Shown here: positions 23,492 to 41,062 of the stretch, piece after piece
Layout of the letters: every line of letters begins with the position of its first letter
Numbering within the stretch: position 1 is the first letter of the stretch
Origin: Bacteroidota bacterium
Lineage (GTDB): Bacteria; Bacteroidota; Bacteroidia; NS11-12g; UBA955
DNA length: 56,599 bases
Direction: 5' to 3'
Assembly (NCBI GenBank): GCA_018333525.1
Contig: JAGXTF010000080.1
Span: 1-56,599, forward strand
Made by a program: the position numbers and the translations under genes
The notes under the pieces: model-generated
What the model was told of the DNA's origin: nothing
Database searches by the model: none
The model's input: the letters and a program-made list of their open reading frames with translations, nothing else

Positions 23492-24553
23492 ATGATTCGA
23501 AAAAAATTGCCACTTTTTTTAATGGTGTTATTGCCATTGCAACTTTATAGCCTTACAACAAAAACATCAACCGGCGGTACATCGTCTTCCCCATTAAACT
23601 GGTCAAATTCAGGTTCATGGAACAGCAGCGGCTCCGGCACTCCAATGGTTTATATCATCCGGTCCGGAGATTATATTCAGTTCGATGCTAACAATTCTTC
23701 GCCATATGTAGATTCGGTATATATATACGGGAATCTGATATTGGTGAATAATAAAGTGATGACCTTAAATAGTACCGGTGTTTTGCAATTAATGAATAGT
23801 ACTGCTACAATTTCAGGAGGTAGTAACAACACACAATTCCAATGGAATGGCACTTCAGCAGTTCTAACCGGGCCATTTACATCAAGTAATATAGTAACCA
23901 ACGGTCCAAGATATGCAACTGCCTCCTCCGTAATTGCTGCAAGTGGCAATATTCAAAGCTCATTTGTTGCAGGTATTTTACCGATTATTTTAGCGGAATG
24001 GGAAATTAAAAATACCGGGGATTTATTGTCATTTTCCTGGCACGCAACCTTAGAATCCAATGAGGTTCTATTTGTAATAAAACACAGCACAGATTTGAAT
24101 AACTGGTATGAAGTGTTACAATTAAATGCCAATGCAGACAGTTTAAATCCGGGCTGGTATGAATGCTCCATTCCCAAAAATAAAATTCAGAATTTCAGAG
24201 AAAAAGGTAATTATTTTGTATTAGATATCCTCGCTGCCGGTGAACCAATATATCGAAGCAGCCCCATTCATTTTCAAAATACGGATTTGGATAAAAGTTC
24301 CATTTTAAATATCAATATTACTTCAAATCCGGCTTCAGAAGACCCATTGGTTGAAGTTTATTCAATCAACTCCGGTGTTGTTGAATTAAATATTTGCACA
24401 TTATCCGGTGCAACCATAAAGCAATGCCATTTGAATTTTGAAGAAAATGTAATACATCAAACCATGATTCTGCGGGACATAAATCCCGGCACCTATATTT
24501 TACGGGCATCAATTGCAAACATCAGTACCAGCATGAAACTGGTTCGTCAATAA
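23492..24553 (+). CDS. T9SS-secreted surface protein, copy 2 of tandem pair
   Basis: This 353-residue paralogue of the preceding gene has a signal peptide (MIRKKLPLFLMVLLPLQLYS) followed directly by the same beta-rich domain. KTSTGGTSSSPLNWSNSGSW, IIRSGDYIQFD, ATISGGSNNTQF and NGPRYATASS all align with copy 1. The FN3-like middle (LPIILAEWEI) and the C-terminal sorting domain (from SNPASEDP to STSMKLVRQ) have diverged much more. The PNP motif typical of the sorting domain reads SNP here, but a T9SS-like end is still likely. Its stop is 2 bp from the convergent GH3 gene. The function is unknown. Confidence 0.7.
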   Translation: MIRKKLPLFLMVLLPLQLYSLTTKTSTGGTSSSPLNWSNSGSWNSSGSGTPMVYIIRSGDYIQFDANNSSPYVDSVYIYGNLILVNNKVMTLNSTGVLQLMNSTATISGGSNNTQFQWNGTSAVLTGPFTSSNIVTNGPRYATASSVIAASGNIQSSFVAGILPIILAEWEIKNTGDLLSFSWHATLESNEVLFVIKHSTDLNNWYEVLQLNANADSLNPGWYECSIPKNKIQNFREKGNYFVLDILAAGEPIYRSSPIHFQNTDLDKSSILNINITSNPASEDPLVEVYSINSGVVELNICTLSGATIKQCHLNFEENVIHQTMILRDINPGTYILRASIANISTSMKLVRQ

Positions 24554-24555
24554 AA

Positions 24556-27453
24556 CTACTTTTTTAGAGAGGAATAAACAATTTCAATTGCTCGGGTTCT
24601 GATATTTAGCTCGAGCAATTTTTTGTTGTTTTCATTCGGATACGTGCGGTTGCTCAGAAAAATAAATACAATATTATTTTCCGGATCTGCCCATGCCCAA
24701 TTGCCTGTAAATCCGCTATGCCCGTAAAGCGCTAAAGGTACAATTTCAGAAATATTCGCTTTTTCCCCTGGTAACGCGTTTGGCTTGTCAAATCCAAGAC
24801 CTCTATGGGTTTTTTTATGCCCCTTTTTTGTAAATTCTTTAATGGTATTTTCCTTTAAGCACTTTGTATTTCCAACGGATCCATTATTCAATAGCATTTC
24901 AAATAATACTGCCATTTCAGATGAATTGGAAAACAATCCTGCATTTCCTGCGATTCCTCCAAGCATTGCGGAAGCCGGATCATGTACATAACCCTGTACT
25001 CTTTGATTGCGGAAATAATTGTCTTCCACAGTAGGGGCAATTTCAGATTCGTAATAGGTACCTGCAGGTAAAAATAAAGTACGTTGCAAATGCAAAGGCG
25101 CATAGAAATATTTATTGGCGAATTGGGATATATTCATACCGCTTACTTTTTCTACAATTCTTGCGGCGATTATCATCCCCAAATCGCTGTATCTGTAAAC
25201 TCCTTTTTTCTCCAGGCGACACGCAACAATTTCTTTCCAAACTTCTTGCTCAAAAGCCGGATCCATCCAAAAACTATCCGCGAGTTTTACGGTATGGCCG
25301 GAGTCATAATTGGATACAAAAACCCCAGGTTTTACCATAGCATTTTTGTAAAAAGGAATCCATGCAGGCAACCCCGATTCATGCAATAACAATTGTCTCA
25401 GAGTGAGCTTTTCTTTATTGGTACCCTTTAGTTCAGGTAAATAGTGCGAAATAGCTGCATCCAGCCGGATATCGCCAGTTTCGTATAATTTCATTAAACA
25501 TAAAGTGGTAGCAGCAACTTTTGTAACCGATGCCAAATCATACAAATCCGTATTTTTAACTGGGCGTAAACTGTCGTAGTAAAAGCTTCCCCATGATCGG
25601 TTATATACCGCTTTACCATCTTTCAAAACCAACATTTGTCCGCCCGGAGATGCATGTTCTTTTTGAGCAAAGGCCAGTAATTTATCCAGATCTTCGGTAA
25701 AATCTTTTTGAAATCCTGCGATTAAAGGTGATTTTTCTTCGAATATATTTTTTACATTTTCTCTGGTGCTTACACCCTGGTCCAGATAGTAACCTTTATA
25801 TGCCATAGCCGGAAGTTTGCCATGAGAATATTTTTCACCGAATAATATATCTGCCGCAGCTTTCTGATATATTTCTCCATCTTCATATGCTACCAGAACA
25901 CATTTGAGATTTGGAATATTTTTAAGCACATATACATTGCCAAATACCACAACTGTTACGGGCATTTGATCTGCCAGTTTGTAGATATTCTGTACGAGTT
26001 GCTGGGGCAACAATTGTGATTTTTTACCCCATAAATTTTGTTCGTGTATGCTAATAATGGCTTCATCAAAATGGGCTAAAATGGAATCAGACATTTTAGC
26101 GAAAACATCATATCCGGAATCGCGATAGGTAAAAAATAATTCCGCTTTTTGAAATTCATTTATTGCATCGCCAAATATGTAATTTCCGGATTTTCCTATG
26201 CTCCATTGCGCAATTTTTCTTTTGGTATTTCTGGGTAAGGGCAGGCGATATTCAGAATCAGTTACCACTGTTATAGCGGCTTCTGCAACTTTTTCGGATA
26301 TAGATTCGGCTTCCCGATTCCAGGTTTGAATATCGCGGTCGGAAAGATCCATATGTTTATATTGATCCAATCCGGAGAGCATTTTAAAGAATAAAACTTT
26401 GCGCGCATGTTCTGCTATTTCAGCGCTATCCAGATAACCGGAATTTACCTGTTCCAAAATCACTTCAATAGCTTTTGGTACATCTTCCGGGCATAATAGA
26501 ATGTCATTTCCGGCTTTGATTGCAGCAGCTTCTGCATACCCGATTCCATAAAATCTGGAAATAGCTTTCATATTTAATGCGTCTGTAAAAACCAATCCCT
26601 GAAAGCCCATTTCCTTTTTTAGTAATCCATTAACTATTGCAGGGCTCATGGAACTGGGACGATGCGCCACGGTATCTAATGCAGGTATTTCCAGGTGAGC
26701 TACCATGGCAGACATGACGCCGGCCTTAAATAAATTGGCAAATGGTCTTAATTCCACATCTTCGAGTCTTGCCAAATCGTGGCCAATGTATGGCAGTTCA
26801 AGGTGGGAATCTCCTTTGGAATCACCGTGCCCGGGAAAATGTTTGGCACAGGCCATAATACCGGCATCCTGCATACCCCGCATCAATAATTCACCTGAAT
26901 GTTCCACTTGTGCAGTACTCTCGCCAAAGCTTCGAAAACCAATAATTGGATTTTCCGGATTGGTGTTAACATCTACATCCGGAGCAAAGTTTACATGAAT
27001 ACCGAGCATTTTGCACTGTTTCCCAATCAGGTAACCGGTTTCATAGGTCAGAGAGTCTTTACCCGCTGCGCCCAGTGTCATATTAAAAGGAAATTTATTG
27101 ACACCCTGCAAACGCATGGCCAATCCCCATTCTCCGTCAATACCAATTAGTAATGGAATTGTGCTCAATTGCTGGTAATAATTGGTGTAATAGGCCTGTG
27201 CCATGGGGGCACCCTGAAAAAAGATCAAGCCCCCGATTTGATTTTCCAAAATCAGTTTCTCTATCATTTCGGCATGCTCGGGTCCCTTGTTGGAATACGC
27301 GCTGATCATCATTAATTGGGCAATTTGCTGCCTGAGATTCATATGCGACAACAAACTGTCCGACCATGGATGGTGGTAATTTCCCTGAGTCCATTGCTGG
27401 GAGGAAAGAAGCGAAAATCTAATAAAAAGTAACAGAATGAAGGCCTTACGCAT
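24556..27453 (-). CDS. Exported GH3 beta-N-acetylglucosaminidase fused to a serine beta-lactamase-fold domain
   Basis: This 965-residue fusion has an N-terminal signal peptide. The GH3 part (about 30-560) carries KHFPGHG at 204-210 and GDSH at 214-217, the NagZ-type His/Asp loop, and nucleophile D291 (VFTDALNMKAI). It should cleave N-acetylglucosamine from peptidoglycan fragments. The C-terminal part (about 590-965) has SVTK with S642/K645, Y755-S-D and HSG at 912-914, the triad of class C beta-lactamase/esterase-like enzymes (peptidases or transacylases). The pairing is known in Bacteroidota and suits muropeptide turnover in the periplasm. The specific reaction of the serine domain is not known. 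It converges on the T9SS gene with a 2-bp gap. Confidence 0.88.
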   Translation of the reverse strand: MRKAFILLLFIRFSLLSSQQWTQGNYHHPWSDSLLSHMNLRQQIAQLMMISAYSNKGPEHAEMIEKLILENQIGGLIFFQGAPMAQAYYTNYYQQLSTIPLLIGIDGEWGLAMRLQGVNKFPFNMTLGAAGKDSLTYETGYLIGKQCKMLGIHVNFAPDVDVNTNPENPIIGFRSFGESTAQVEHSGELLMRGMQDAGIMACAKHFPGHGDSKGDSHLELPYIGHDLARLEDVELRPFANLFKAGVMSAMVAHLEIPALDTVAHRPSSMSPAIVNGLLKKEMGFQGLVFTDALNMKAISRFYGIGYAEAAAIKAGNDILLCPEDVPKAIEVILEQVNSGYLDSAEIAEHARKVLFFKMLSGLDQYKHMDLSDRDIQTWNREAESISEKVAEAAITVVTDSEYRLPLPRNTKRKIAQWSIGKSGNYIFGDAINEFQKAELFFTYRDSGYDVFAKMSDSILAHFDEAIISIHEQNLWGKKSQLLPQQLVQNIYKLADQMPVTVVVFGNVYVLKNIPNLKCVLVAYEDGEIYQKAAADILFGEKYSHGKLPAMAYKGYYLDQGVSTRENVKNIFEEKSPLIAGFQKDFTEDLDKLLAFAQKEHASPGGQMLVLKDGKAVYNRSWGSFYYDSLRPVKNTDLYDLASVTKVAATTLCLMKLYETGDIRLDAAISHYLPELKGTNKEKLTLRQLLLHESGLPAWIPFYKNAMVKPGVFVSNYDSGHTVKLADSFWMDPAFEQEVWKEIVACRLEKKGVYRYSDLGMIIAARIVEKVSGMNISQFANKYFYAPLHLQRTLFLPAGTYYESEIAPTVEDNYFRNQRVQGYVHDPASAMLGGIAGNAGLFSNSSEMAVLFEMLLNNGSVGNTKCLKENTIKEFTKKGHKKTHRGLGFDKPNALPGEKANISEIVPLALYGHSGFTGNWAWADPENNIVFIFLSNRTYPNENNKKLLELNIRTRAIEIVYSSLKK

Positions 27454-27715
27454 ATCTCAAATCACAAAGGAACTACCTGAATAACGAAGTAAAGAGCAAA
27501 ACCTTTGCCGCGATTGTGGATATTGGTCAAATATTGCATCCAGGAAGAAAGATTCCAATTTCATGAAACTTCCATGGCTTTATCACTCAGAATCAGTGCG
27601 TTCGGGCAGCAATTGTATTAATTTTGAAAAAAAATCAGATTCGAGGCCGCGTTTATTAACCGGGATTTGTCTAAAGCTACAAATCGGCACATGCGGATGC
27701 ACGAACACCGAAAGG
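27454..27715. other. Divergent intergenic region before the sigma-factor operon
   Basis: No gene is present. The open frame reaching upstream of the sigma start to 27563 has no sigma-factor features in its first 51 codons and is taken as leader sequence. A TAnnTTTG-type box, TAATTTTG, lies at 27619-27626, about 90 bp before the start. Confidence 0.45.
27619..27626 (+). promoter_or_regulatory. -7 element candidate for the sigma operon
   Basis: TAATTTTG matches TAnnTTTG. No clear TTTG -33 element is present at the right spacing, so this is only a candidate. An autoregulated ECF promoter could look different. Confidence 0.3.
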
Positions 27716-28246
27716 ATGACAGAGAAAGAACTGGTAGATGGCTGTATCAAGGAAGACCGGATTTGCCAGCGTTTTCTTTGGGACAAATACGCGCCAAAGC
27801 TCCTTTCTATTGGAATCAGGTATTGTAAATCCCGCGAAGATGCCGAAGATGTATTGATGGAAGCATTTGTAAAAATATTTGATAAGATCGGAGAATTTCG
27901 ATTTCAGAGTTCACTTGAAACCTGGATGAGAAGGGTAATGGTGAATACCAGTATTAACAAAATCCGGTCTACCAAAATTACAGATACTATTGATAATGAA
28001 CATTTGGAAATTGCATTTAATGACAGGGCATTCGAACTCATGAATGCCAGAGAATTGTTGCAATTGCTGGAAAAGCTCCCCGTGGGCTACCGAACGGTGT
28101 TCAACCTGTATGCAATTGAAGGTTATTCCCATAAAGAAATAGCCGATGAACTTGGAATAGACGAAGGAACTAGCCGATCGCAGCTGGCTAAAGCGAGAAA
28201 AGCGCTGCAAGAATTAATTGAAAAAAACGAGCAAGTAAGGTTATGA
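27716..28246 (+). CDS. ECF-type RNA polymerase sigma factor
   Basis: This 176-residue sigma-70 family protein has region 2 (about 25-95: FLWDKYAPKLLSIGIRYCKSREDAEDVLMEAF) and region 4 (about 115-170: LPVGYRTVFNLYAIEGYSHKEIADELGIDEGTSRSQL, a helix-turn-helix). The ATG at 27716 is chosen because upstream codons show no family similarity and AAAGG lies just before it. The stop overlaps the next start as ATGA (28243-28246). The next gene has the form of a membrane-anchored anti-sigma protein, so the factor is likely held inactive at the membrane and released by an envelope signal. Its target promoters are not known. Confidence 0.9.
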   Translation: MTEKELVDGCIKEDRICQRFLWDKYAPKLLSIGIRYCKSREDAEDVLMEAFVKIFDKIGEFRFQSSLETWMRRVMVNTSINKIRSTKITDTIDNEHLEIAFNDRAFELMNARELLQLLEKLPVGYRTVFNLYAIEGYSHKEIADELGIDEGTSRSQLAKARKALQELIEKNEQVRL

Positions 28247-29514
28247 GTAACCTGGAAAATAATATTAAAAATAAGCTTTACAACCTGGAAACTCCTCTGG
28301 GAGGGAATGTGAGTTTCGAAAAGGTGATGGCAATGAGAACCAAGGAACGCGGAAATATTTGGTGGAAACCTACATTGATGGTAGCCAGTATTTTAGGTGT
28401 TGTATCTCTTACAGGGTACTATTTCTATCAAAAGTATAGCAATCCGTCTGAAACTGTTTCCCAAATTTCTGACAGCAAAAATCAGGGTTCTTCGGATGTT
28501 GGCGATAAATCCAACAATCCGGTTGCTTCTGAAAAATCGCCAACTCAAAATTCAATGGAAAATGCTTCCATTTCTGCATCTGAAATGCAAAATGCAAATG
28601 CAGGTTCTGGTAAAAGGGCCATTTATCCTGCTCGCCGCAACCGGGATTTAATTCCATCAGAGGGTCCAATTGAAAATCCTGTTGAAAGAGAAGTTGCCGG
28701 TAACATTACTGAAAATATATGGACAGACTGGAGCGGACTTCATAGTTTCGGATTGCACGAAAAATGGGAGAAATACAGTCTTGCATCCAATGATAAAAGA
28801 CTCAAATACAAGCACAAACGGGTAGATAATAAAGATCCAAAAGTTTTACCGGAAATCGAATTGATGATGGCTACCGGAAACAGAAATGTGAAAGAATATG
28901 CCACATTAAACAGTTATGCTGTTCGCGGAATTCACCGTTACACCCAATTTTCAGCATCTGCTTTATGGGATCTGGGCAAGGGATGGAAAGCCGGAGCCGG
29001 TGTGGGATATAGCCAATTTGCAGGTAACGGGGAGTGGAGAAATTTATACCCTGTTACTACCCAAAAAGTGCGTATAGATACCACCATCATCGTTCAACCT
29101 GGTTTCCCGGATAAACAGGTGATAACCAGAGATACTACTTACGTTACAACTAACGAAATTCAAACAGGCAAACTGTCTTATACCCTAAGTAAAATTAGCA
29201 TTCCATTGAGTTTTCAATATTATTTGGGACGTGGAACCACCTTGTTCCGATTAAATGGAACTGTAGCTCCAGGCTGGCTTTCAGCAGAAAATGGTCAAAT
29301 TTTTAGCAAAGAAGACAGCAGAAATACCACAGGTTCAATCAATCAAATGACATTGGACGGCAGGCTGGGTATGGGTCTTTATTATGTATTGAACAAACGC
29401 ACAGCAATTATTATTGAACCAGGTGCCACCTACCAATCCGTACTTGGACATGGTTGGAATACATACAACCGCATTGGTTTCGGAATGGGATTTGGATTGA
29501 TGATTAAGCTCTAA
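28243..29514 (+). CDS. Candidate dual-membrane-spanning anti-sigma factor (TM anchor plus C-terminal beta-barrel)
   Basis: This is a 423-residue protein with an unusual order of parts. Residues 1-40 are hydrophilic and acidic-basic (cytosolic); 43-62 form one transmembrane helix (WWKPTLMVASILGVVSLTGYY region). Residues 63 to about 200 are a Ser/Asn/Gln-rich, low-complexity linker able to cross the periplasm, and about 203-423 resemble an eight-stranded outer-membrane barrel (LNSYAVRGIHRYTQFSASALW, LSYTLSKISIPLSFQYYLG, final NRIGFGMGFGLMIKL). There is no cleavable signal peptide. The gene overlaps the sigma gene by 4 bp. Known dual membrane-spanning anti-sigma factors (Dma) of Bacteroides have this plan. 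Binding to the sigma factor is inferred, not seen. Confidence 0.72.
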   Translation: MSNLENNIKNKLYNLETPLGGNVSFEKVMAMRTKERGNIWWKPTLMVASILGVVSLTGYYFYQKYSNPSETVSQISDSKNQGSSDVGDKSNNPVASEKSPTQNSMENASISASEMQNANAGSGKRAIYPARRNRDLIPSEGPIENPVEREVAGNITENIWTDWSGLHSFGLHEKWEKYSLASNDKRLKYKHKRVDNKDPKVLPEIELMMATGNRNVKEYATLNSYAVRGIHRYTQFSASALWDLGKGWKAGAGVGYSQFAGNGEWRNLYPVTTQKVRIDTTIIVQPGFPDKQVITRDTTYVTTNEIQTGKLSYTLSKISIPLSFQYYLGRGTTLFRLNGTVAPGWLSAENGQIFSKEDSRNTTGSINQMTLDGRLGMGLYYVLNKRTAIIIEPGATYQSVLGHGWNTYNRIGFGMGFGLMIKL

Positions 29515-29523
29515 TTTTGCTGG

Positions 29524-31044
29524 ATGTTATCCAGAAGTCTGAAAGTACTTTTACTTCTTCTTATCAGCCGTTCGGCATCTTCTCAGAACGGCGTTTTTTT
29601 GAAGAATGCAGGAGATGCTACTTTTAGGTTAAGCCACTTACCCGGCCTTGGGAATAGCAATTTTAAAGCTGTAGAATATCCTGTTTCCAGTGGTAATTAT
29701 GCACTGAATAGACTTGATTTTTGGATTACCGGCATTGATCAAACAGGAGATACGGTTGCATTATGTTCCGATATTTTTTCTAATAAATCGGCCTGGGTCT
29801 CGGGGCCAACGTCCATTTCCGGAAATAGAATGCATGTGGATTCCGCCGAATGGAAATCATTTATTTCTGTAAATGCTTCTGAAATTAATTACCATAAATC
29901 CCATTATCTGGATGGAAACTATGTTGTACCCTCCGGGATAGCTTTCTGGCCTGCAGCGTATAATGTGAGTGGTTTCCCTAAAGTGTTGGCGGCATTTGCA
30001 GATGCCAACCAGAATGGGGTTTACGAATATAAATCCGGCGATTATCCATATGTCCCGGGTGCTGAAAATGTTTTTACAATGGGCAGTGATTCTACTCTTT
30101 TGCTCAGAAACAGCGGAATTTCATCTCATTTGGATATGGCTACGCTTTGGTTTCTTTCGGAAAAATCTGACAGTAGTCCAAATACCATATTTTTCAGAAA
30201 TGTGATTTGCAATAGGGGAACTGAAACAATAAACGGACTCAAAGTGAGCGCTGTGGCCGCTATGCAGATAGGGATGCCCAATGACAATTTCCTTTCTACA
30301 GATGTAGAAAACGGAAGTATTGTGGGAATTAATGCAGCCGGTAATGATGGCATTTATGGAAATACCTGGCCTGCTGTGGCGGTGGGCTGGCTTTCTGAAA
30401 AACCTCTGAAATCCATTTATTTTGATCCCGGATCGGATGCAGTGAATGGCAAACCGGTTCATGCCAGTGATTTTTATAATTTGAGCAATGGTTATTGGAA
30501 AACAGGCAAATTTCTCTCTTTCGGTGGTTCAGGGCTTGACGGCTCAGTACCAGCATCATTCGTTTACAGCAATGGCACGGATATAGGTCAGAGTAATAAA
30601 GATTGGGATGAAACTCCCGGTACAGCTGGAGTCAGAACAGGTTTGATTTCAACTGGCTGGAATGAACTAAAAGGGAATACCTGCAAAGCAGTAGATGGAT
30701 TTGTTAAAATAATTCCCAATGCTCCGGATTCAGCTTCGCTGCGTACCAGTTTGAAATCCACGAGAAATTTTTATGAAAAATCGGAATTCAATGTCGGAAT
30801 AAAATACAACCCTAAACCTATGCCGGGTTTTAATTTGTATCCCAATCCAGTCGGTAAAGGACAGGTATTGTTTTTAGATGGATTGACTAAGGGTGCAAAA
30901 TTGGAAATTTTTGGATTTTCCGGATTAAGAATTGCATATGAAAAACCCACCGGAAATTCAATTATTTTGAATTTGCCCGCCGGAATTTATATAGTAAAAG
31001 CCGATGGTTATTTACCTCAGATTCTTTGCATTTCCGGCAATTAA
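29524..31044 (+). CDS. T9SS-secreted protein in the sigma/anti-sigma operon
   Basis: This 506-residue exported protein starts 9 bp after the anti-sigma-like gene and so belongs to its operon. A signal peptide (MLSRSLKVLLLLLISRSAS, cleavage before QNGV) precedes a large globular part with many Gly, Ser and Asn, including DANQNGVYEYKSGDYP, which resembles a calcium-binding-like loop. The last 70 residues (GFNLYPNPVGKGQ to PQILCISGN) form a type A sorting domain. It should pass through the T9SS and reside on the surface or be released. Being the final gene of the sigma unit, it might be a regulated product or part of the sensing circuit. No enzymatic motif is visible. Confidence 0.72.
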   Translation: MLSRSLKVLLLLLISRSASSQNGVFLKNAGDATFRLSHLPGLGNSNFKAVEYPVSSGNYALNRLDFWITGIDQTGDTVALCSDIFSNKSAWVSGPTSISGNRMHVDSAEWKSFISVNASEINYHKSHYLDGNYVVPSGIAFWPAAYNVSGFPKVLAAFADANQNGVYEYKSGDYPYVPGAENVFTMGSDSTLLLRNSGISSHLDMATLWFLSEKSDSSPNTIFFRNVICNRGTETINGLKVSAVAAMQIGMPNDNFLSTDVENGSIVGINAAGNDGIYGNTWPAVAVGWLSEKPLKSIYFDPGSDAVNGKPVHASDFYNLSNGYWKTGKFLSFGGSGLDGSVPASFVYSNGTDIGQSNKDWDETPGTAGVRTGLISTGWNELKGNTCKAVDGFVKIIPNAPDSASLRTSLKSTRNFYEKSEFNVGIKYNPKPMPGFNLYPNPVGKGQVLFLDGLTKGAKLEIFGFSGLRIAYEKPTGNSIILNLPAGIYIVKADGYLPQILCISGN

Positions 31045-32124
31045 TCAGGCCGGTTCACCCAATTCCTGTTCTACCTTTTGCATCCAACCGAAAACATCTT
31101 CAGATTGGCCATAACGAATGCCATCTAAAAGGGATTTCAAGGATGAAGAAATACTCGTATCTCCCTGAGCCATTACATCAAAAAAGTGATGGTTATGTCC
31201 AAAACCAACCAGATTTATGAGTGTTGCCGCGGTTCCGGTAATAAAGAGTTCTTTCAAATTGCCATTGTGAAATTCCTTTTTCAATTCCAATATGGAAAGT
31301 GGTCTTTCTTCCACTTCATATCCCATGTGGTTCAATAATTTAATTGCACTATCCCGGGTGATACCTGCAAGCAGGTTTTCTGATAAATCCGGAGTGACAA
31401 TATTTTTTCCGATAACGGCAAAGAAATTGGTTGTGCCTGTTTCTTCCACAAATTCATGGGTAACAGGATCTGTCCAAAGTACCTGATCAAAGCCTTCTTC
31501 CTGCGCCTTTTTGGTTGCGAAAAGTGAACCGCCATAATTTCCTGAACACTTTGCAAATCCGGTGCCACCAGGGGCTGAACGACTATAATGTTCTTCCACT
31601 TTAACACGAAGAGGGTTATTATAATATGGACCAACAGGACAGCAAAAAATGATGAATTTGTATTTTTCTGAAGGACGCACACCAACGTGCTCGTCAGTTG
31701 CGAACATAAATGGACGAATATATAAACTGGAACCATCGGTACCCGGAACCCATTGTCGGTCAATATCCACCAATGCGGTTAATCCCTGCATAAAAATATC
31801 TTCCGGCAATTCCGGCATTACCATTCGTTTGGCTGAAGTATTTAAGCGTTTCCAGTTTTCCTTTGGGCGAAAAAGCCAAACTTCTCCTGAAGCGGAAAAT
31901 GCTTTCATGCCTTCAAAAATAGCCTGACCATAATGCAGGGCACTGGTAGCAGGGCTTAACTGAATCTGGCTATATGGTTCGATTCTCAGGTCTGTCCAGT
32001 TTTTCCCATCATAATCCGCAACAAACATATGGTCAGTAAAAATTTTACCAAATCCAATATTGTGCGGATCGAATTCCGCAAGCCTGCTATTTTGAGTCTT
32101 GTAAATATTAATTTTGTGCGCCAT
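31045..32124 (-). CDS. ilvE: Branched-chain amino acid aminotransferase
   Basis: This 359-residue class IV PLP aminotransferase catalyses the last step in leucine, isoleucine and valine synthesis and the first in their degradation. The large (eukaryote-like) BCAT form is shown by LHYGQAIFEGMKAF, YIRPFMFATDEHVGVRPS, and FAKCSGNYGGSLFATKKAQ, with K192 (G-x-x-K-x-x-GNY context) the likely PLP lysine. FVEETGTTNFFAVIG and the GITRDSAI substrate loop are also intact. It stops directly against the stop of the T9SS gene (31044/31045). Its start is only 33 bp from the divergent unknown gene. No other ilv/leu genes are in the window. Confidence 0.95.
   Translation of the reverse strand: MAHKINIYKTQNSRLAEFDPHNIGFGKIFTDHMFVADYDGKNWTDLRIEPYSQIQLSPATSALHYGQAIFEGMKAFSASGEVWLFRPKENWKRLNTSAKRMVMPELPEDIFMQGLTALVDIDRQWVPGTDGSSLYIRPFMFATDEHVGVRPSEKYKFIIFCCPVGPYYNNPLRVKVEEHYSRSAPGGTGFAKCSGNYGGSLFATKKAQEEGFDQVLWTDPVTHEFVEETGTTNFFAVIGKNIVTPDLSENLLAGITRDSAIKLLNHMGYEVEERPLSILELKKEFHNGNLKELFITGTAATLINLVGFGHNHHFFDVMAQGDTSISSSLKSLLDGIRYGQSEDVFGWMQKVEQELGEPA
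32109..32116 (+). promoter_or_regulatory. -7 element candidate inside the 5' end of ilvE, for the divergent gene
   Basis: TAATTTTG fits TAnnTTTG and lies 41 bp before the ATG at 32158. A TTTG is found 14 bp upstream (32091-32094), shorter than normal spacing. It would lie within the first codons of ilvE on the opposite strand. Confidence 0.33.
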
Positions 32125-32649: not shown

Positions 32650-32870
32650 AATGGAAACCGAATAAAAAGTGCATAACAGTAAACCTTACGCGTCTCTGTT
32701 TATTTGGATTTGTAAGTATTTGATTTATATATATTTGCATTAGGAGGGGTTCTCCATAATCACTTATCAGTTTTTGACTGCACGCAGGCAACATAAAATG
32801 ACCTTATAATGTCATAACTATTATCGGATATTTCAGTTAAATTTGAAGTATCTCCATAAACCTCCATCGG
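32650..32870. other. 221-bp intergenic region before the gliding-protein pair
   Basis: AT-rich with no gene. TAnnTTTG-like TAAATTTG lies at 32838-32845, 25 bp before the ATG of the giant protein. No clear terminator is visible. Confidence 0.4.
32838..32845 (+). promoter_or_regulatory. -7 element candidate for the gliding-protein operon
   Basis: TAAATTTG is a full match to TAnnTTTG; a convincing -33 TTTG is not found at the usual spacing. Confidence 0.35.
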
Positions 32871-35800
32871 ATGAAGAGAATCTTACTATCAGTCATTTTT
32901 TTATTCCTTTCCTTTTCAGCAATTAAGCTCAGGGCAGACCATGTAATGGGTGCCGATATGAGTTACAAGTGTCTGGGTAATGGTAAATATAAAATTATTA
33001 TCGTTTTTTACCGCGATTGCCGCGGTGCTGCTGCACCTCCCAGCTGGAGTATCCTGAGCTGGTATGTGGGACAAAATGGTGGAAACTCCTGTGGCGGAGG
33101 TTCTTCTGGATTTCAGAATTTTCAACGGACCGGTATCCGCGATATCACCCCACGCTGTTCCACGGCCAATAAGCCCTGTAGCCCGCAAAATACAGACTAT
33201 ACCGGTGAAGGCGTAGAGGAGCATACTTATGAAACTGAAATTGATATTACCAAAACCCCTTTTGCAGGTGTTGTTGGAAAATCATCCAGTTGCTGTGAAC
33301 TAACTATTGCATATAATCAATGCTGCAGAAATGAAGCAATCACCACCGGGGCAACCTGGCAGGACTTCTGGACCACCTGTGTAATTAATGTCTGCAATAT
33401 TTCCAAATCCGACAACAAGTGCAATACTTCACCCAAGCTTACAAACGCGCCAATTGCATATGCCTGTTGTAACCAGCCCTATTACTTCAATAATGGTGCA
33501 TCGGATACTGTTGATTACGATTCACTTTCATACCGTCTTGCACCTGCCTTGCGCGGTGTACCAGCCAATTCAGTAACTTATTCAACCCCGTTTTCATATA
33601 AATATCCATTAACCCCATATTGTGTTCCTGCTACCAAAATTGATTGTCCGCCAAACCTGAAAACTGATCCGCCGCGCGGCTTTTTTCTGGATACCAGCAC
33701 AGGTGACCTTGTATTTACTCCAACCAAATGTGATGAAGTAGCAATCCTCTGTTTGGAGATTACCGAATGGCGAAAGGATACTTTGGGTAAATACATATGG
33801 GTTGGAAAAACCCGAAGGGATATACAGATCATTGTGAAGGATGATTGCGGTTATAATAAAACGCCTAAAATCACAGGTCCTACGGTAAATAAAGTTTGTG
33901 AAGGCGACAAAATATGCTTTGATATCGAAGGGAAAGACGAAACCTTTACACCTTACCAAACCATTCCGGATACTGTTCAGATGAAGTGGAACAATGGTAT
34001 TCCCGGTGGAACTTTCACCATAAAAAATCCCTCTGACAGGGAAAAAACTGCACAGTTCTGCTGGCAAACCAAAGTTGGGCAGGCAAGTGAAATTGCATAT
34101 GCTTTTACAGTTACTGCAACCGATGACCACTGCCCAAAACCATCACTTTCAACCCGTGGTTTTAAAGTGAAGGTGAACTTCCGTGCTTTTGATACACGCA
34201 AATACACCATTCTCAAATGTGGCAGGTTTGCTTATGAAGCCAAATTGCCTGAAGGATTCAGAGGTGTGGCGCAGTATAAATGGAGCTTCCGCGATAGTAA
34301 CGGAAACAATGAATTTTACTTTTCCAGTAAAAAGTCGGACACTATGACTTTCTATAAAGGTGGAAGGTATATAGTAGTGCACACAGTTAACAACAGCGAC
34401 AATTGTCCCACTATTTACAGAGATACCATAGACATTCCGAATCCTCCAACAGCGGTGCTGGCAACTAAAGATACTTTTGCCTGCTACAAAACCAAACTTG
34501 TGCTGGAGGCCAGTGTATTATATGCCAAATTGCCTTACAAATATTATTGGACTCGTCCTTTATTGCATATGTCTGGGGATACTTTCAACTCCATAACTCT
34601 GGGCAGTGTAGATCGCGATTCCACCATTATGGTTCAGGTTACTGATGGCGATGGATGCAATTTTTGGGATACTGCTACAGTATTTGTGAAGCCATTGCCA
34701 AATAATCCTGGTATTGCGGATCAGCGAATATGCACTTATCAGCAGGCAACCTTTGATGCACAGCACGCGGATACCATGTATTACCTCTGGAATACAGGGG
34801 ATACTACACGAAATATTACCAATCATATTGCCGGGGATTATATCGTCACTATTACTGATACCATTTGGGGTTGTCAGATGACAGATACTGCACATCTCTT
34901 TGTGAATGATACGGTAGTTTCATTGGCTGGTTCAGATAAAATCATTTGTAACAATGACAAGTATGATATTATTGCAAACCATAGAAATGCATCTTTAATT
35001 CCGGTTTATCAGTGGACGGATTTAAAAACCGGTACTGTGCTTGGTTCTAATCAAAAATATACGGTTCAGCCCAAGAATACCAACTCCACTGGTGGTTCCG
35101 CACAGTTTTTTACATATGAATTATTTACTAAAGTAACCCAGGTTGGTGTGACATGCGAACACAGAGATACAATGTCTATCAAAGTGAATACGCTGCCTTT
35201 GGTTTCATGGACAAAAAATCCGTTGGATCAGAAATGTCATGACTACGGGGATATTCGTCTGGATCCGTTTATCAACAGACCTTTGAATTCGCTTTGGAAG
35301 CAGGGAAATATCATGGTTTGGGGCACTAAAACCGGGTATGGATATAAATCCGGTTTGAACAACAATGGATTGTTGGATAGCATTAATTATGATGCGCATT
35401 ATTTCAGAACCAAGAAAATAAACAATGCAACAGAACTCAATGGTGGTAAGAATATAGAAGATGTCATTACCCTTTGGTTTAAAGATACCAATGGTTGCAT
35501 CAATACAGCGACAACACGCCAGCGCATCAATGGAAACCCAATTATAATACTCGACACCAGTATTTATTGTCAGGATAAAGGATGGGCCAAAATGGACAGC
35601 AGTGTTATTTCTCCGAAAACTAAATTCGGAAACAAACAATCCTGGCAAGTATTGCAGGTTCCAAGCGGGGTAGACCCGTCACTGGTATTGGTGGATAACA
35701 GTTTTGGTGCAGGAACGGATTGGGAATTGCATTTTGGAAATCCCACACAAGATTTTTATGCAGGAAATTATATTTTGAAATTCTCTGTTACAGATCAGGT

Positions 35801-37514
35801 TACCGGTTGCTTTGATACCGATACCACTATGGTTAAAATCATTACTGAACCAAATGTGGCGGTTTCTCCACCAAGTTTGGTTTGTTTGAATTGGGATACT
35901 CTGGACCTCAGAGATTACATAAAACTCAATGGATTCAAACCAAATATCAATACGAATAACTGGTTCACAATTTTAGAATACAAAAATCAACGCAACCACC
36001 CGAAGGTAACAAGTACCGTTCTGGATAAGGGTTATATGTTTTTACCTGCTAGTGGCGGTGGTACCTGGCTAATTAAATTCAGTTCAGATGAAACAGGTTG
36101 CTTGCGCGAAGACAGCTTCTTTGTAGATGTAATTGATACTCCAAGTGCTACATTGCTGCCACCAATTACCGTCTGCAGCAGCGGCACTCCTTTAGATCTG
36201 AACAGCAGGATTACCAATGTACAGCCTAGTTCCTCAACAGTGGTTTGGTCTGGTTGGAACGTAAGTCCCGGTTCCAGTTTATTTCCTCCAAAAAGTAAAG
36301 ACAGTGCAACATTGGAAGGACCATATGCAATGTTTTTGGAGTTAACCAACAGCAGCGGATGTAAAGGACATTATACTTATCCGGTAACTGTTCGCAGCCA
36401 GCCCGAAGTGAAAATCACTTCCAACAAACCATTAACGGCTTGTCAAAGAACTCCGGTTAATGTTACAAGTACTTCAAAATACAGCGACCAGAACAATGTA
36501 AATTGGGTGGGGATAAACGGTGCTGATGGAAATATCAGCAATCCCGCTGCACAAAATATCGTTTATGTTCATGGAAATCAGGATAGCATAAATAATTATG
36601 CCTGGTTGAAAGTAAGTACAGTTGCAATTCCAAATGAAGTATGTCCGCAGGCAGTGGATTCGATTCAAATTATTTTGCATCCATATCCGGCACCGGTGAT
36701 GACAAGCCCGTTTGACAGTTGTGTTCCATTTACATTGAATTTCTATGGTTCAGAATCCAAGAATATTCCGCTATCTCAATTGTCTTGGGATTGGGATTTT
36801 GGAAATAGCATTACCAGTGCTGTTCAGAACCCAACCGGCATAGCTTTTAGTCAATCCGGTAAATATACAGTTACCTTAAAAGTCACCAATGATGTGGGTC
36901 CATGTGCAACAACTATTAGTGAACCTGATTTTGTTGAGGCATATCCAAATCCTGTTGCCGATTTTACAACAGATCCAGCGTTCAAAACTACTGTTGCATT
37001 GCCGAAATTCACCATGCGCAATCTGAGTACTTTGGATCAGGCTATATTTAACGGCAGCATGTCTTACCAATGGGATTTTGGCGATCCTTTAACTGATCCA
37101 AATGATGTGAGTAATCTTGAAAATCCGAAATATGCTTATGGTAAAGATACCAATACCTATTACATCACTTTGCTCGTTACATCCAACCATGGTTGCGTTT
37201 CTACCATAACAAAGTCTGTTGTTATTGGTCCGGATATTATTGTATTTATTCCGGATGTTTTTACTCCGGAAGGTTCTGGTCCGGGAAGAAATGAAACATT
37301 CATGATTTCAGCTCTTAATTTCAAAACCATGAAGTTGCTGATCTTTAACCGCTGGGGAGAAAAACTTTATGAAACTACGGATGTTACCAAAGGGTGGGAC
37401 GGAAGATCCAATGGTGAAATTTGTCCGGATGGTGTTTATATTTACAAAATTCAGGTGGAGGCCCCTGATGGAAAAATTTATAATTATGATGGAACTGTAA
37501 CCCTTATGAGATAG
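32871..37514 (+). CDS. Giant surface protein with gliding-motility-associated (type B) C-terminal domain
   Basis: This is a 1547-residue exported protein with signal peptide MKRILLSVIFLFLSFSA. The N-terminal domain begins with HVMGADMSYKCLGNGKY and YRDCRG. It holds three vicinal Cys pairs (C141/142, C151/152, C199/200) and ends around ITEWRKDTLGKYIW. Many Ig/PKD-like modules follow, among them WDWDFGNSITSAVQNP and YQWDFGDPLTD near residues 1300-1440. The final 90 residues (FIPDVFTPEGSGPG to YDGTVTLMR) are the gliding-associated C-terminal domain that targets T9SS cargo to the surface. It is likely an adhesin-like component of motility or attachment; no role is proven. The next gene is a related protein that starts on its stop codon. 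Confidence 0.88.
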   Translation: MKRILLSVIFLFLSFSAIKLRADHVMGADMSYKCLGNGKYKIIIVFYRDCRGAAAPPSWSILSWYVGQNGGNSCGGGSSGFQNFQRTGIRDITPRCSTANKPCSPQNTDYTGEGVEEHTYETEIDITKTPFAGVVGKSSSCCELTIAYNQCCRNEAITTGATWQDFWTTCVINVCNISKSDNKCNTSPKLTNAPIAYACCNQPYYFNNGASDTVDYDSLSYRLAPALRGVPANSVTYSTPFSYKYPLTPYCVPATKIDCPPNLKTDPPRGFFLDTSTGDLVFTPTKCDEVAILCLEITEWRKDTLGKYIWVGKTRRDIQIIVKDDCGYNKTPKITGPTVNKVCEGDKICFDIEGKDETFTPYQTIPDTVQMKWNNGIPGGTFTIKNPSDREKTAQFCWQTKVGQASEIAYAFTVTATDDHCPKPSLSTRGFKVKVNFRAFDTRKYTILKCGRFAYEAKLPEGFRGVAQYKWSFRDSNGNNEFYFSSKKSDTMTFYKGGRYIVVHTVNNSDNCPTIYRDTIDIPNPPTAVLATKDTFACYKTKLVLEASVLYAKLPYKYYWTRPLLHMSGDTFNSITLGSVDRDSTIMVQVTDGDGCNFWDTATVFVKPLPNNPGIADQRICTYQQATFDAQHADTMYYLWNTGDTTRNITNHIAGDYIVTITDTIWGCQMTDTAHLFVNDTVVSLAGSDKIICNNDKYDIIANHRNASLIPVYQWTDLKTGTVLGSNQKYTVQPKNTNSTGGSAQFFTYELFTKVTQVGVTCEHRDTMSIKVNTLPLVSWTKNPLDQKCHDYGDIRLDPFINRPLNSLWKQGNIMVWGTKTGYGYKSGLNNNGLLDSINYDAHYFRTKKINNATELNGGKNIEDVITLWFKDTNGCINTATTRQRINGNPIIILDTSIYCQDKGWAKMDSSVISPKTKFGNKQSWQVLQVPSGVDPSLVLVDNSFGAGTDWELHFGNPTQDFYAGNYILKFSVTDQVTGCFDTDTTMVKIITEPNVAVSPPSLVCLNWDTLDLRDYIKLNGFKPNINTNNWFTILEYKNQRNHPKVTSTVLDKGYMFLPASGGGTWLIKFSSDETGCLREDSFFVDVIDTPSATLLPPITVCSSGTPLDLNSRITNVQPSSSTVVWSGWNVSPGSSLFPPKSKDSATLEGPYAMFLELTNSSGCKGHYTYPVTVRSQPEVKITSNKPLTACQRTPVNVTSTSKYSDQNNVNWVGINGADGNISNPAAQNIVYVHGNQDSINNYAWLKVSTVAIPNEVCPQAVDSIQIILHPYPAPVMTSPFDSCVPFTLNFYGSESKNIPLSQLSWDWDFGNSITSAVQNPTGIAFSQSGKYTVTLKVTNDVGPCATTISEPDFVEAYPNPVADFTTDPAFKTTVALPKFTMRNLSTLDQAIFNGSMSYQWDFGDPLTDPNDVSNLENPKYAYGKDTNTYYITLLVTSNHGCVSTITKSVVIGPDIIVFIPDVFTPEGSGPGRNETFMISALNFKTMKLLIFNRWGEKLYETTDVTKGWDGRSNGEICPDGVYIYKIQVEAPDGKIYNYDGTVTLMR

Positions 37515-40500
37515 TGCTCAGAAAGCTTTCATATCATTGGCATAATGCCATTAAAACCCTGCTATTTGTGGCGGGGTTTGGTGTTTATGGCGGTATCCAG
37601 GCTAAGCATATCCTTGGAGGTGAAATTTCCTACACCCATATTTCTGGTAATAAATATAAGTTTACCGCGCATATATATCGCAATTGCAACGAATGTGAAT
37701 TCAATACATTGAATTGTCTGGATATTAAAAATCTGGATATTTATGTAAGCCCTGAAGAGTTGGGTTTTGCAAAAAAATTGGGAACCATTCCAATTTCAAA
37801 AGTTTCCAAAAAAGATGTTACTCCTCTATGTAAATCGGCAAGTTCGGTATGCACCGGAGGATCTTTCTCCCATGGAATTGAAGAATTGATTTATGAGGGA
37901 ACGTATAATTTTGATACCATAATTGACTATTGCAAATTGGAAATTGGATTGCGCGTAGATTCAAGATTGGATGCGTACAACCAATCCATTAGTGAAGCAT
38001 ACTATAATTTTACGAGAATTAATATTTGCAACTATATCAACAATAACAGTCCGCAATTTCTATCTCCAACCTTTTATATATTGCCATTAAATCAAAGTTT
38101 TACTTACAATATTTTGGCAAGAGATTCGGATGGAGATTCACTGTCATATAAGTTTTCCAAAGCGCAGAAAGGCTGGAATTCCAATTGCACTTACCCTTCT
38201 GTTTATAGCGCTGCAAAACCAATCGATGTAAATTGTTCAAGTTCATGTGACCTGAATAAAAATACATGGCCGATAGATGGAATAGGAATAGAATCTAATT
38301 CAGGATGGATGGGTTTTACTCCAATTACCCAAAGTCAAACAGGATTTGTTGTTGTTGAAGTTACCGAATGGAGGAAAATTAATGGCAACTGGGCAGTGGT
38401 TGGAGTTAGCAGAAGAGATATGCAGGTAATCGTAGTGGATTTAAATAACAATCCTCCAAAAATTACTACTTCTGCATTTGAATATTTTGCTTGTAGTGAA
38501 ACCGATTTTTCTTTGGACTTTGGTATTCTCGATGCTATTTATTCAGGACTTAAAGATTCCGTTTCATTTTCAGTTTTTTCAGATTTACCGGGAGGTAATC
38601 AAGCAAAAGTTGGAAATTCCAAAAATCAGTTTGACGCATTATATACAGTTCCAATCACCAGAAATCTTATTCGAAGTAACCCTTATTATTTAACTATAGT
38701 CGCAACAGATAATCATTGTCCTGTGGTTGCAAGTACTTATAAAACTATTTCCATTAAAGTAACCGGAGTTCCGGATCCCGTCTCACAGGTGAGTTTTAAG
38801 GAATGCAACAAAGTGGAATTCAAAACCCAGGCATCGGGTTCGGAATACAAACATTTCTGGCATTTATTCAGTGGCAATTCGCTTTTGGAATCTAAGCATG
38901 GTGGCAATGGATATTTTGAAGTGCCAAACCCTGGTAAATATTACATCAGACATCAGGTGGAAAATACCAATACAGGTTGTCGGACTGAAACGGTAGACAG
39001 TATTGATGTACCATACTTTTCGCTGATGACTACCGGATTTTCCTGGCCTGATAACGTATGTCAAAATGAAGATTTTATTCTGAAAAAGAATTTCAATGGT
39101 GGAACAGCTGAATTTTATTATTGGTGGAATGGAATTCTTGGCACAGATTCATTTAAAATCAATATCAATAAACCAACAGTTTTTGAATTGTCTGTGAAGG
39201 ATAAAAATGGATGCAGGTATCAGTATTCCAAAGAAATCAAAATCTTTACCCCTGTAACTTTAAGCCCAAATGATACCGCAATGTGTTTACCCGCATCTGG
39301 TAAAGCGGTTAGTTTGAATAATCGCATTTCCATTACACCGGTTACCATCCTAAATCAATACAAATTTGAATATTTGGGTAGCAATGGAAATGTTACTACA
39401 TCAAATGGGAAATATTATTTTGCACCGGCTTCATCCGGCGACCACCTATTTAACTTTTTTTATACAGATGGCAATCTATGCCATTATGATGCCTCGTTTA
39501 CCATAAAGGTAGTAGATATTGTTCAAACAGGAATTCAAAGTCCTGCATCTGCCTGTAGCAACGAAAATAAACTGGATATCAACCAAATTACTTCCTGTAC
39601 ATTAAAGGATGGGATTTGGAAATCCAATACTGCCCCTGCAGCGGTTAGTGATGGATATTTCGATCCGAAAAAATCAGGTGCAGGTACATTTGATCTGGTT
39701 TTTGAAAAGGATTTAAATGGTTGTTTGTTGCATGACACAACAGAAATTGTGATACATAAAGCACCAGGTGTTTTTATCGTAAAACCAATGGATTCAGTAT
39801 TCTGTTCTACCCAAAATAATTTTACATTAGGTGCAATTCCTGTAGGTGGAGTGTGGCAAAATGATGTGAATGCACCAATGCCAAATATGGTTTCTCCGTC
39901 CGATTTAGCCTCAAAAAGTTTGAATCGGGCAACATATATTTACACTTATACGGATAAAATAAACGGATGCAAATCAACGGATAAGGTAACATTATATGTC
40001 AACCCGGCTGTGGAATATTCGCTATTACCGGGATATGAAATGTGTGCAAATTCTCAATTGCAAATTGATCCAAAAATTACAAATTCTTCCGGTATTCAAA
40101 TGAGTGGTTACCATCCGGATTTAGTGGTGAAGAGGGTAGATGATGCATATGTATTTTACAGCAGTAATGTAAAACAAAAAGTACTTGCGTCATACGTGTT
40201 CACTATAAAAGGTTATGAGGCCTGTCCGGATAAAACGGCTAATGTAGATATATCCATTAAGCCAATTCCGGAGATTGAAATTGAAGCAAAACCAGCACAG
40301 GGTTGTGTGCCTTTTTATTCTATTTTATCTGCGGAGAATAAAAATCCGAATGTAAAACCTTCCAGATATTATTGGAAAGAAGGAGCAGACTGGAATGAAG
40401 GATCCTTATTTAAGGCTATTGTTTTAAATACTGAAGGTGTTTATGCTTATGAGGTAAAAGCATCTGCTGAAGGGTGTTTTAGTGAAATTGCAAGAATTTC

Positions 40501-41062
40501 TGTTGAGGCATTTCAGACACCTGTTGCGCGATTTGAAACAGAGCCAAAAAACAGAACTGTATCTGCAGACTTTACACAACTTACTTTTTCAGATATAAGT
40601 AGTTCAAAAGTGCCTTATGTGAGATATTGGAATTTTGAAAGAGGTTCTCCAGCAACCAGCGACAAACAACGTGTTTCTGTTGACTTTCCGAAAGATACAG
40701 GTCTTTATGGGGTGAAATTATTATTGGTGACAGATCAGGGATGTCAGGCATCAGATTTCAAAAATATTCGCGTAAGACCGGGATTGCAGTTCTTTGTTCC
40801 AAATGCATTTACTCCGGATAGCAAAGGACCATATCAAAATGAAATGTTTCAGGTGGTGATGGATTCTGCATCTATGTTTCATTTAACCATACGCAACCGA
40901 TGGGGTCAATTAATGTTCTCTTCCATTAGCCAATTTTCGGGCTGGGATGGAACTTATTTGAATGAAAAAGCTCCGGCGGGTGTCTATGTGTGGGAGGTAG
41001 AAGCAAATACCATATACGGCAATTACGTAAAGAAATCCGGCACCGTTTCTTTATTGCGTTAA
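37514..41062 (+). CDS. Giant surface protein with gliding-motility-associated C-terminal domain, paralogue
   Basis: This 1182-residue protein begins at a GTG (37514-37516) overlapping the TAG of the preceding gene by one base. The signal peptide has a longer n-region (MLRKLSYHWHNAIKTLLFVAGF). The mature N-terminus, AKHILGGEISYTHISGNKYK, aligns with the HVMGADMSY start of the first gene, and VTEWRKINGNWAVV matches its ITEWRKDTLGKYIW. The middle carries Ig/PKD-like repeats; the C-terminal 90 residues (FVPNAFTPDSKGP to KKSGTVSLLR) are again the gliding-associated domain. The two are therefore tandem paralogues that are translationally coupled. The function is probably surface adhesion or motility. 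Confidence 0.85.
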   Translation: MLRKLSYHWHNAIKTLLFVAGFGVYGGIQAKHILGGEISYTHISGNKYKFTAHIYRNCNECEFNTLNCLDIKNLDIYVSPEELGFAKKLGTIPISKVSKKDVTPLCKSASSVCTGGSFSHGIEELIYEGTYNFDTIIDYCKLEIGLRVDSRLDAYNQSISEAYYNFTRINICNYINNNSPQFLSPTFYILPLNQSFTYNILARDSDGDSLSYKFSKAQKGWNSNCTYPSVYSAAKPIDVNCSSSCDLNKNTWPIDGIGIESNSGWMGFTPITQSQTGFVVVEVTEWRKINGNWAVVGVSRRDMQVIVVDLNNNPPKITTSAFEYFACSETDFSLDFGILDAIYSGLKDSVSFSVFSDLPGGNQAKVGNSKNQFDALYTVPITRNLIRSNPYYLTIVATDNHCPVVASTYKTISIKVTGVPDPVSQVSFKECNKVEFKTQASGSEYKHFWHLFSGNSLLESKHGGNGYFEVPNPGKYYIRHQVENTNTGCRTETVDSIDVPYFSLMTTGFSWPDNVCQNEDFILKKNFNGGTAEFYYWWNGILGTDSFKININKPTVFELSVKDKNGCRYQYSKEIKIFTPVTLSPNDTAMCLPASGKAVSLNNRISITPVTILNQYKFEYLGSNGNVTTSNGKYYFAPASSGDHLFNFFYTDGNLCHYDASFTIKVVDIVQTGIQSPASACSNENKLDINQITSCTLKDGIWKSNTAPAAVSDGYFDPKKSGAGTFDLVFEKDLNGCLLHDTTEIVIHKAPGVFIVKPMDSVFCSTQNNFTLGAIPVGGVWQNDVNAPMPNMVSPSDLASKSLNRATYIYTYTDKINGCKSTDKVTLYVNPAVEYSLLPGYEMCANSQLQIDPKITNSSGIQMSGYHPDLVVKRVDDAYVFYSSNVKQKVLASYVFTIKGYEACPDKTANVDISIKPIPEIEIEAKPAQGCVPFYSILSAENKNPNVKPSRYYWKEGADWNEGSLFKAIVLNTEGVYAYEVKASAEGCFSEIARISVEAFQTPVARFETEPKNRTVSADFTQLTFSDISSSKVPYVRYWNFERGSPATSDKQRVSVDFPKDTGLYGVKLLLVTDQGCQASDFKNIRVRPGLQFFVPNAFTPDSKGPYQNEMFQVVMDSASMFHLTIRNRWGQLMFSSISQFSGWDGTYLNEKAPAGVYVWEVEANTIYGNYVKKSGTVSLLR

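Follow-up and report, generated by a model that had tools for sequence, protein, structure and literature searches.

We analysed a contig of 56,599 nt (JAGXTF010000080.1, hereafter the window) from the 3.7-Mb draft genome of a Bacteroidota bacterium (assembly GCA_018333525.1). On its + strand, at 27716-31044, three intact open reading frames (ORFs) form one unit: an extracytoplasmic function (ECF) sigma factor, a protein of the dual membrane-spanning anti-sigma (Dma) type and a type A cargo protein of the type IX secretion system (T9SS). The locus is probably a sigma/anti-sigma switch of the Dma type that specialises in T9SS surface proteins, and its sigma factor would drive both its own operon and separate genes for giant surface proteins. 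Gene order and its conservation, predicted architecture, homology to Dma2, the promoter and the recurrence of that promoter before T9SS cargo genes, all established computationally, carry this reading. An earlier note, made from the sequence alone, had described the three-gene unit and proposed that an outer-membrane barrel signals to the cytosolic sigma factor, with the T9SS client as ligand, regulated product or secretion reporter. The unit proved real in its ORFs, its domains and its recurrent adjacency in relatives. The interpretation stood in part: the Dma relationship, the barrel, the conserved order and the regulated product are supported, while the ligand or reporter role is one we hold tentatively. 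The giant T9SS type B genes with the same promoter are the larger result and lie beyond that observation.

A Dma-type protein beside an ECF sigma factor

Both Sigma70 domains of the sigma gene score far over the cut-off (Table 1). As described earlier, the Dma-type gene overlaps the sigma gene by 4 bp (28243 versus 28246) and the cargo gene starts 9 bp past the Dma-type gene (29514 to 29524). The earliest ATG of the sigma reading frame is at 27563, upstream of the predicted promoter at 27645-27673. Since this promoter lies between ATG 27563 and ATG 27716, the latter, chosen in the earlier note, is supported as the start.

The AlphaFold2 model of the Dma-type protein, built on an alignment of 20 relatives, places a cytosolic segment, a transmembrane (TM) helix, a disordered tether and a barrel within a few residues of the limits first read from the sequence (TM 43-62, linker, barrel 203-423; 41-65, 66-197 and 204-422 in the model). 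Residues 1-40 rank among the best conserved parts of the protein, and a hydrophobic segment is found at the same place as the TM helix in relatives. That the C-terminal region should model as a barrel was offered as a point on which the proposal could fail, and it held: compared with solved 8-stranded outer-membrane barrels by VIA-align, it matches NspA with Z 14.8 (152 residues, rmsd 3.4), OprF with 14.4, PagL with 14.2 and OmpA with 13.6 (the fold was also compared by Foldseek). The protein in the window matches no Pfam family up to E 1, its relatives match OMP_b-brl and OMP_b-brl_2, and a search of PDB sequences with the Dma profile gave nothing convincing.

Strands 248-283 and 291-319 of the model far exceed the thickness of the membrane and form a hairpin, which would face the cell exterior, given a barrel N-terminus in the periplasm. 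Invariant G253 and invariant P321 stand 67-69 aa apart in 22 of 26 members, which are otherwise only 14-32% identical to the protein in the window, and the tip residues I283, P286, P289, V293, D297 and T298 are conserved among family members.

The same plan of anti-sigma segment, TM helix, disordered tether and barrel, beside an ECF21 sigma gene, has been described for Dma2 (PMC13088901). We located two Bacteroides-like genomes, of the same class as the genome studied here, via DUF4943, the family of the gene adjoining dma2. Both loci contain sigma, a Dma-like gene, a DUF4943 protein, a further secreted protein and a nitronate-monooxygenase-like gene, which matches the published dma2 order. 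A hidden Markov model (HMM) of the window's family finds Dma2 of both loci (E 7.4e-9 and 1e-7, values that, as for all our purpose-built HMMs, refer to small gene sets), and hhalign of the family against the Dma2 pair aligns residues 1-62 (96%, E 4.7e-9). The window sigma is 36% identical to the sigma of the Bacteroides dma2 locus (Das2-type). Profile comparison and modelled architecture thus bear out the suggested match to the Dma plan: the gene at 28243-29514 is a Dma by predicted architecture and N-terminal homology, with a predicted anti-sigma role.

Comparison with Dma1/Das1 and Dma2/Das2 of Bacteroides thetaiotaomicron (PMC13088901 and the PNAS 2024 paper cited there) gives the same order of anti-sigma segment, one TM helix, disordered tether and C-terminal barrel, and the same adjacent partner ECF sigma gene, with homology detectable in residues 1-62 and in sigma. 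In contrast, the partner genes there encode DUF4943/DUF4858 proteins and here a T9SS cargo; the regulon there comprises outer-membrane vesicle and polysaccharide utilization locus functions and here, as predicted, giant T9SS proteins. The long conserved hairpin of the window barrel is lacking in the Dma2 sequences compared here.

An ECF sigma gene followed by a one-TM anti-sigma-like protein might also suggest FecI/FecR-type signalling via a TonB-dependent transducer. FecI/FecR/FecA likewise brings a surface signal to an ECF sigma through a one-TM inner-membrane protein, but two proteins bridge the envelope there, whereas one chain is predicted to do so here. No FecR domain was found in the Dma-type protein (Pfam up to E 1; no FecR-type NCBIfam match), the unit holds no TonB-dependent receptor, and the barrel is on the anti-sigma-like protein itself. 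We rejected this explanation on architecture and give it hardly any weight.

A predicted promoter shared by the sigma operon and giant surface proteins

Upstream regions read side by side revealed a bipartite motif of ECF type, GGCMRCR-N16-TGTCWW. Of 59 loci, 41 carry it before sigma, between -58 and -88 relative to the start (mean for shuffles, 0.24). A position weight matrix (PWM) was trained on 36 sigma promoters from relatives, none of them from this genome, and used to scan the window; genome-wide sites come from the pattern search. Among 113,142 window positions the PWM ranks the sigma promoter first and the promoter of giant 1, the larger of two giant genes in the window, second. The strict pattern has only 10 matches in the whole genome (reversed control: 3), and the two within the window are again those before sigma and before giant 1. 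Some candidates were set aside as chance matches: the third-ranked PWM site, 42801, inside the ClpX gene (42515-43762), and the pattern matches C45, C79, C94:10517 and C106 of this genome, inside ORFs.

We scored 19 ECF sigma genes of this genome, and the motif stands before that of the window alone (19.5; next best, 6.0). Since none of the other 18 does, the window sigma is indicated as the reader of the promoter. It could be argued that the motif belongs to another ECF sigma, with the window sigma among its targets: the genome has 22 ECF-type matches over the cut-off, not all of them scored for the motif, and ECF promoters can overlap. This is improbable in view of the scored genes, and because the motif precedes orthologues of the window sigma across two families and weaker forms of it precede related sigma genes elsewhere.

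We crossed 208 pattern sites with the places of giant-family genes (141 in 34 genomes). Twenty-six sites lie at most 300 bp upstream of giant genes on the same strand, in 17 of the 34 genomes, and 24 of them are in the window's family. The expected number, 0.05, was calculated as if sites were placed uniformly; as promoter-like sequences tend to cluster upstream of genes, this value is somewhat too low, but the true one is still far below 26. In this genome sites precede giant 1, a predicted member of the regulon, and two further giant genes (C56, C94). A site also precedes a 705-aa T9SS type B gene (G000:C75) and, at an equal distance, its relative in G008 (C16). Another lies before a 759-aa gene (G000:C13) whose match to T9SS type A is weak. 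In one genome of the neighbouring family (G047) a site precedes a PorP/SprF gene. Separately, at two places (L258 and L259; G009:C2:453437 and G001:C105:3721) the motif precedes short ORFs of ∼34 aa, both ending QKAAG(V/N), possibly a conserved small protein of the regulon to judge from sequence.

In many relatives sigma, dma, cargo, giant 1 (∼1550 aa) and giant 2 (∼1200 aa) form an uninterrupted run, and the order of the giants is retained in relatives. In the window a small gene and an inverted gene (31045-32124), which we take from reading its sequence to be a branched-chain aminotransferase, part the giants from the sigma-dma-cargo unit. With sites before both sigma and giant 1, it follows that giant 1 has a promoter copy to itself where it was split from the operon; this holds for the window and for G008, the nearest relative, where the giant 1 site is arranged alike. 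The start of giant 2 overlaps the stop of giant 1, so the two are probably co-transcribed.

Like SprB-type gliding adhesins and other T9SS type B proteins, the giants are repeat proteins with a CHU_C/TIGR04131 sorting domain. By description, they differ from these in that they share a distinctive N-terminal domain and have a sigma promoter dedicated to them. Elsewhere, shortly before SprA, five giant-family genes stand in tandem (G000:C59:29500-48500, L235); none of them was found to have the sigma promoter, and the giant family is therefore under at least two kinds of control.

The cargo gene and what the switch may sense

The third gene had been read as a T9SS-exported protein, and this is borne out. 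By eye the cargo has a Sec-type signal peptide; its sorting domain scores 27.3 bits with TIGR04183 (NCBIfam cut-off, 23); and Por_Secre_tail is matched by all 9 aligned cargo members, though below the cut-off of the Pfam model for the member in the window. In a sequence search of PDB with the cargo profile only the T9SS sorting domain matched with confidence (8glk). The genome encodes SprA (TIGR04189, 2206 bits), so the T9SS is present. Nearly all genomes of the order also encode a ∼1300-aa paralogue that contains the cargo-type domain (e.g. G000:C89:23830-25023).

Whether the order of the genes is conserved was another point on which the proposal could fail, and the order survives both within the bacterial order and beyond it. 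Within the same bacterial order, each of the cargo orthologues lies directly behind a dma gene (29/29 loci), with sigma before dma wherever the contig reaches (one contig ends before sigma). The count avoids circularity, as about half of these loci came from a search seeded with the cargo gene and not with dma. Of the 13 best cargo homologues outside the two families in a class-wide sample, 10 follow a Dma gene at 3-56 bp; they belong to four further families. Sigma and dma are adjacent in every relative in which both could be seen. Given this recurrence of both adjacencies, the three-gene arrangement is more than chance.

In the mechanism that we infer, the N-terminal segment of the Dma-type protein would hold the ECF sigma in the cytosol, and the chain would cross the inner membrane once, span the periplasm by its disordered tether and end in the 8-stranded outer-membrane barrel, with the long hairpin displayed outside the cell. 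A surface change would travel inwards along this single chain and free the sigma factor, which would then transcribe its own operon (sigma, Dma, cargo) via GGCMRCR-N16-TGTCWW and, via the same promoter, the separate genes for giant PKD/type-B T9SS proteins. The cargo, exported by the T9SS, may come back to the barrel or hairpin as a feedback ligand or as a report of working secretion.

Several points weigh against this reading. Seven of the 11 giant-family places in this genome have no strict match to the motif, so the regulon would be only a part of the giant family (one of the seven, C12, has a near match 70 bp upstream with score 11.7). The AlphaFold model of the cargo is poor (mean pLDDT, the predicted local distance difference test, 55) and unusable. 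Finally, 18 loci of the window's family keep sigma and dma with no cargo gene, so the cargo is not essential to the switch. At two cargo-less loci (L034 and L038; G016 and G029) we noted by eye, behind sigma-dma, an ArsR-like protein, a small protein ending GGGCC and a low-molecular-weight phosphatase/arsenate-reductase-like fusion.

The part of the cargo in the switch can be understood in more than one way. That it is a regulated product, as the earlier note allowed, is supported by its place in the autoregulated operon and by the same promoter before other T9SS cargo genes. It may be that the cargo is output only, that the surface signal is another (a glycan, a surface or the state of the envelope), and that cargo and giants are merely turned on. 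To this nearly even possibility the cargo-less loci lend support, as do the promoter logic that the cargo shares with the giants and the proposal by the authors of the Dma2 study of an unknown glycan as signal (PMC13088901). It is more difficult to explain in this way why other families keep the Dma-cargo pair though giants are not behind the cargo. Such deep linkage is more than a plain output needs and suggests, from gene order, that the cargo may be more than that. In addition, the hairpin is shortened in five members (L033, L035, L036, L043, L050), all of them from loci with no cargo gene, which would fit a contact between cargo and hairpin; it may represent just two evolutionary events and is a lead only.

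A somewhat less likely possibility, which we put forward tentatively, is that the switch measures T9SS export: the cargo would dock on the Dma hairpin and, via the tether, set how active a sigma factor is that specifically serves giant T9SS surface proteins. A precedent is found in Porphyromonas, where the T9SS C-terminal domain protein PorA feeds into SigP activity (PMC7712824), and it supports the cargo possibly being more than output. In the PorXY-SigP system of Porphyromonas gingivalis, too, an ECF sigma is tied to the T9SS and a surface protein with the T9SS domain feeds its activity, as is proposed here. By description, the signal there passes through a two-component system and the targets are genes of the T9SS machine, whereas here an anti-sigma barrel and cargo genes take these places. 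A literature search, limited in reach, found no regulatory circuit joining Dma proteins to type IX secretion.

Alternatively, the barrel might report outer-membrane assembly: on failed insertion the chain would slacken or be cleaved and sigma would be freed in an envelope-stress response. The domain is indeed a plain 8-stranded barrel, and known Dma proteins affect vesiculation (PMC13088901). Still, we consider this unlikely, since the regulon found consists of surface cargo with no chaperones or assembly factors, and an assembly sensor would not need a hairpin of fixed length with a conserved tip.

Neighbouring genes and meaning of the locus

Table 1. Features of the sigma-dma-cargo unit and of the giant genes in the window (aa, amino acids)
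Feature	Position	Strand	Basis
Predicted autoregulatory ECF promoter, GGCCGCG-N16-TGTCTA	27645..27673	+	42 bp before sigma ATG; PWM score 19.5, rank 1
ECF sigma factor, 176 aa	27716..28246	+	Sigma70_r2 4.6e-12, Sigma70_r4_2 1.6e-18
Dma-type dual-membrane-spanning anti-sigma-like protein, 423 aa	28243..29514	+	AlphaFold2 model; profile match to Bacteroides Dma2
Predicted cytosolic anti-sigma segment, residues 1-40	28243..28362	+	Helices 2-13 and 25-34 in model; hhalign to Dma2 over residues 1-62
Single TM helix, residues 41-65	28363..28437	+	AlphaFold2 model
Disordered S/N/E/K-rich periplasmic tether (predicted), residues 66-197	28438..28833	+	pLDDT < 50 throughout; composition
8-stranded outer-membrane beta-barrel (modelled), residues 204-422	28852..29508	+	pLDDT mostly 85-95; VIA-align
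Predicted extracellular beta-hairpin, residues 263-308	29029..29166	+	Tip I283-P286-P289-V293-D297-T298; candidate sensor
T9SS type A cargo protein, 506 aa	29524..31044	+	Signal peptide ∼residues 1-21; C-terminal sorting domain 438-492
Second predicted promoter for same sigma, GGCAACA-N16-TGTCAT	32787..32815	+	55 bp before giant 1; PWM score 16.2, rank 2
Giant surface protein 1, 1547 aa, PKD repeats and T9SS type B sorting domain	32871..37514	+	PKD_4 3.2e-19, CHU_C 3.9e-15, TIGR04131 43.8 bits
Giant surface protein 2, 1182 aa, CHU_C type IX signal	37514..41062	+	CHU_C 3.5e-9

Divergent from the sigma gene, at 24556-27453 (- strand), is a gene for a 965-aa GH3 glycosidase fused to a beta-lactamase-like domain, and a similar gene of ∼960-1070 aa occupies the same place in many relatives. 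Two more proteins with weak T9SS type A sorting domains (22108-23220 and 23492-24553) are encoded just upstream of the sigma-dma-cargo unit.

To our knowledge, the control of expression of giant T9SS surface proteins is largely undescribed, and the locus gives a regulatory handle on them. The Dma2 paper leaves the signal open; with a partner protein and a surface hairpin that are both conserved, and with a readable promoter, the locus in the window makes the question of the ligand of Dma proteins testable. If the switch does measure export, information on secretion would be gathered at the cell surface and passed straight into transcription.

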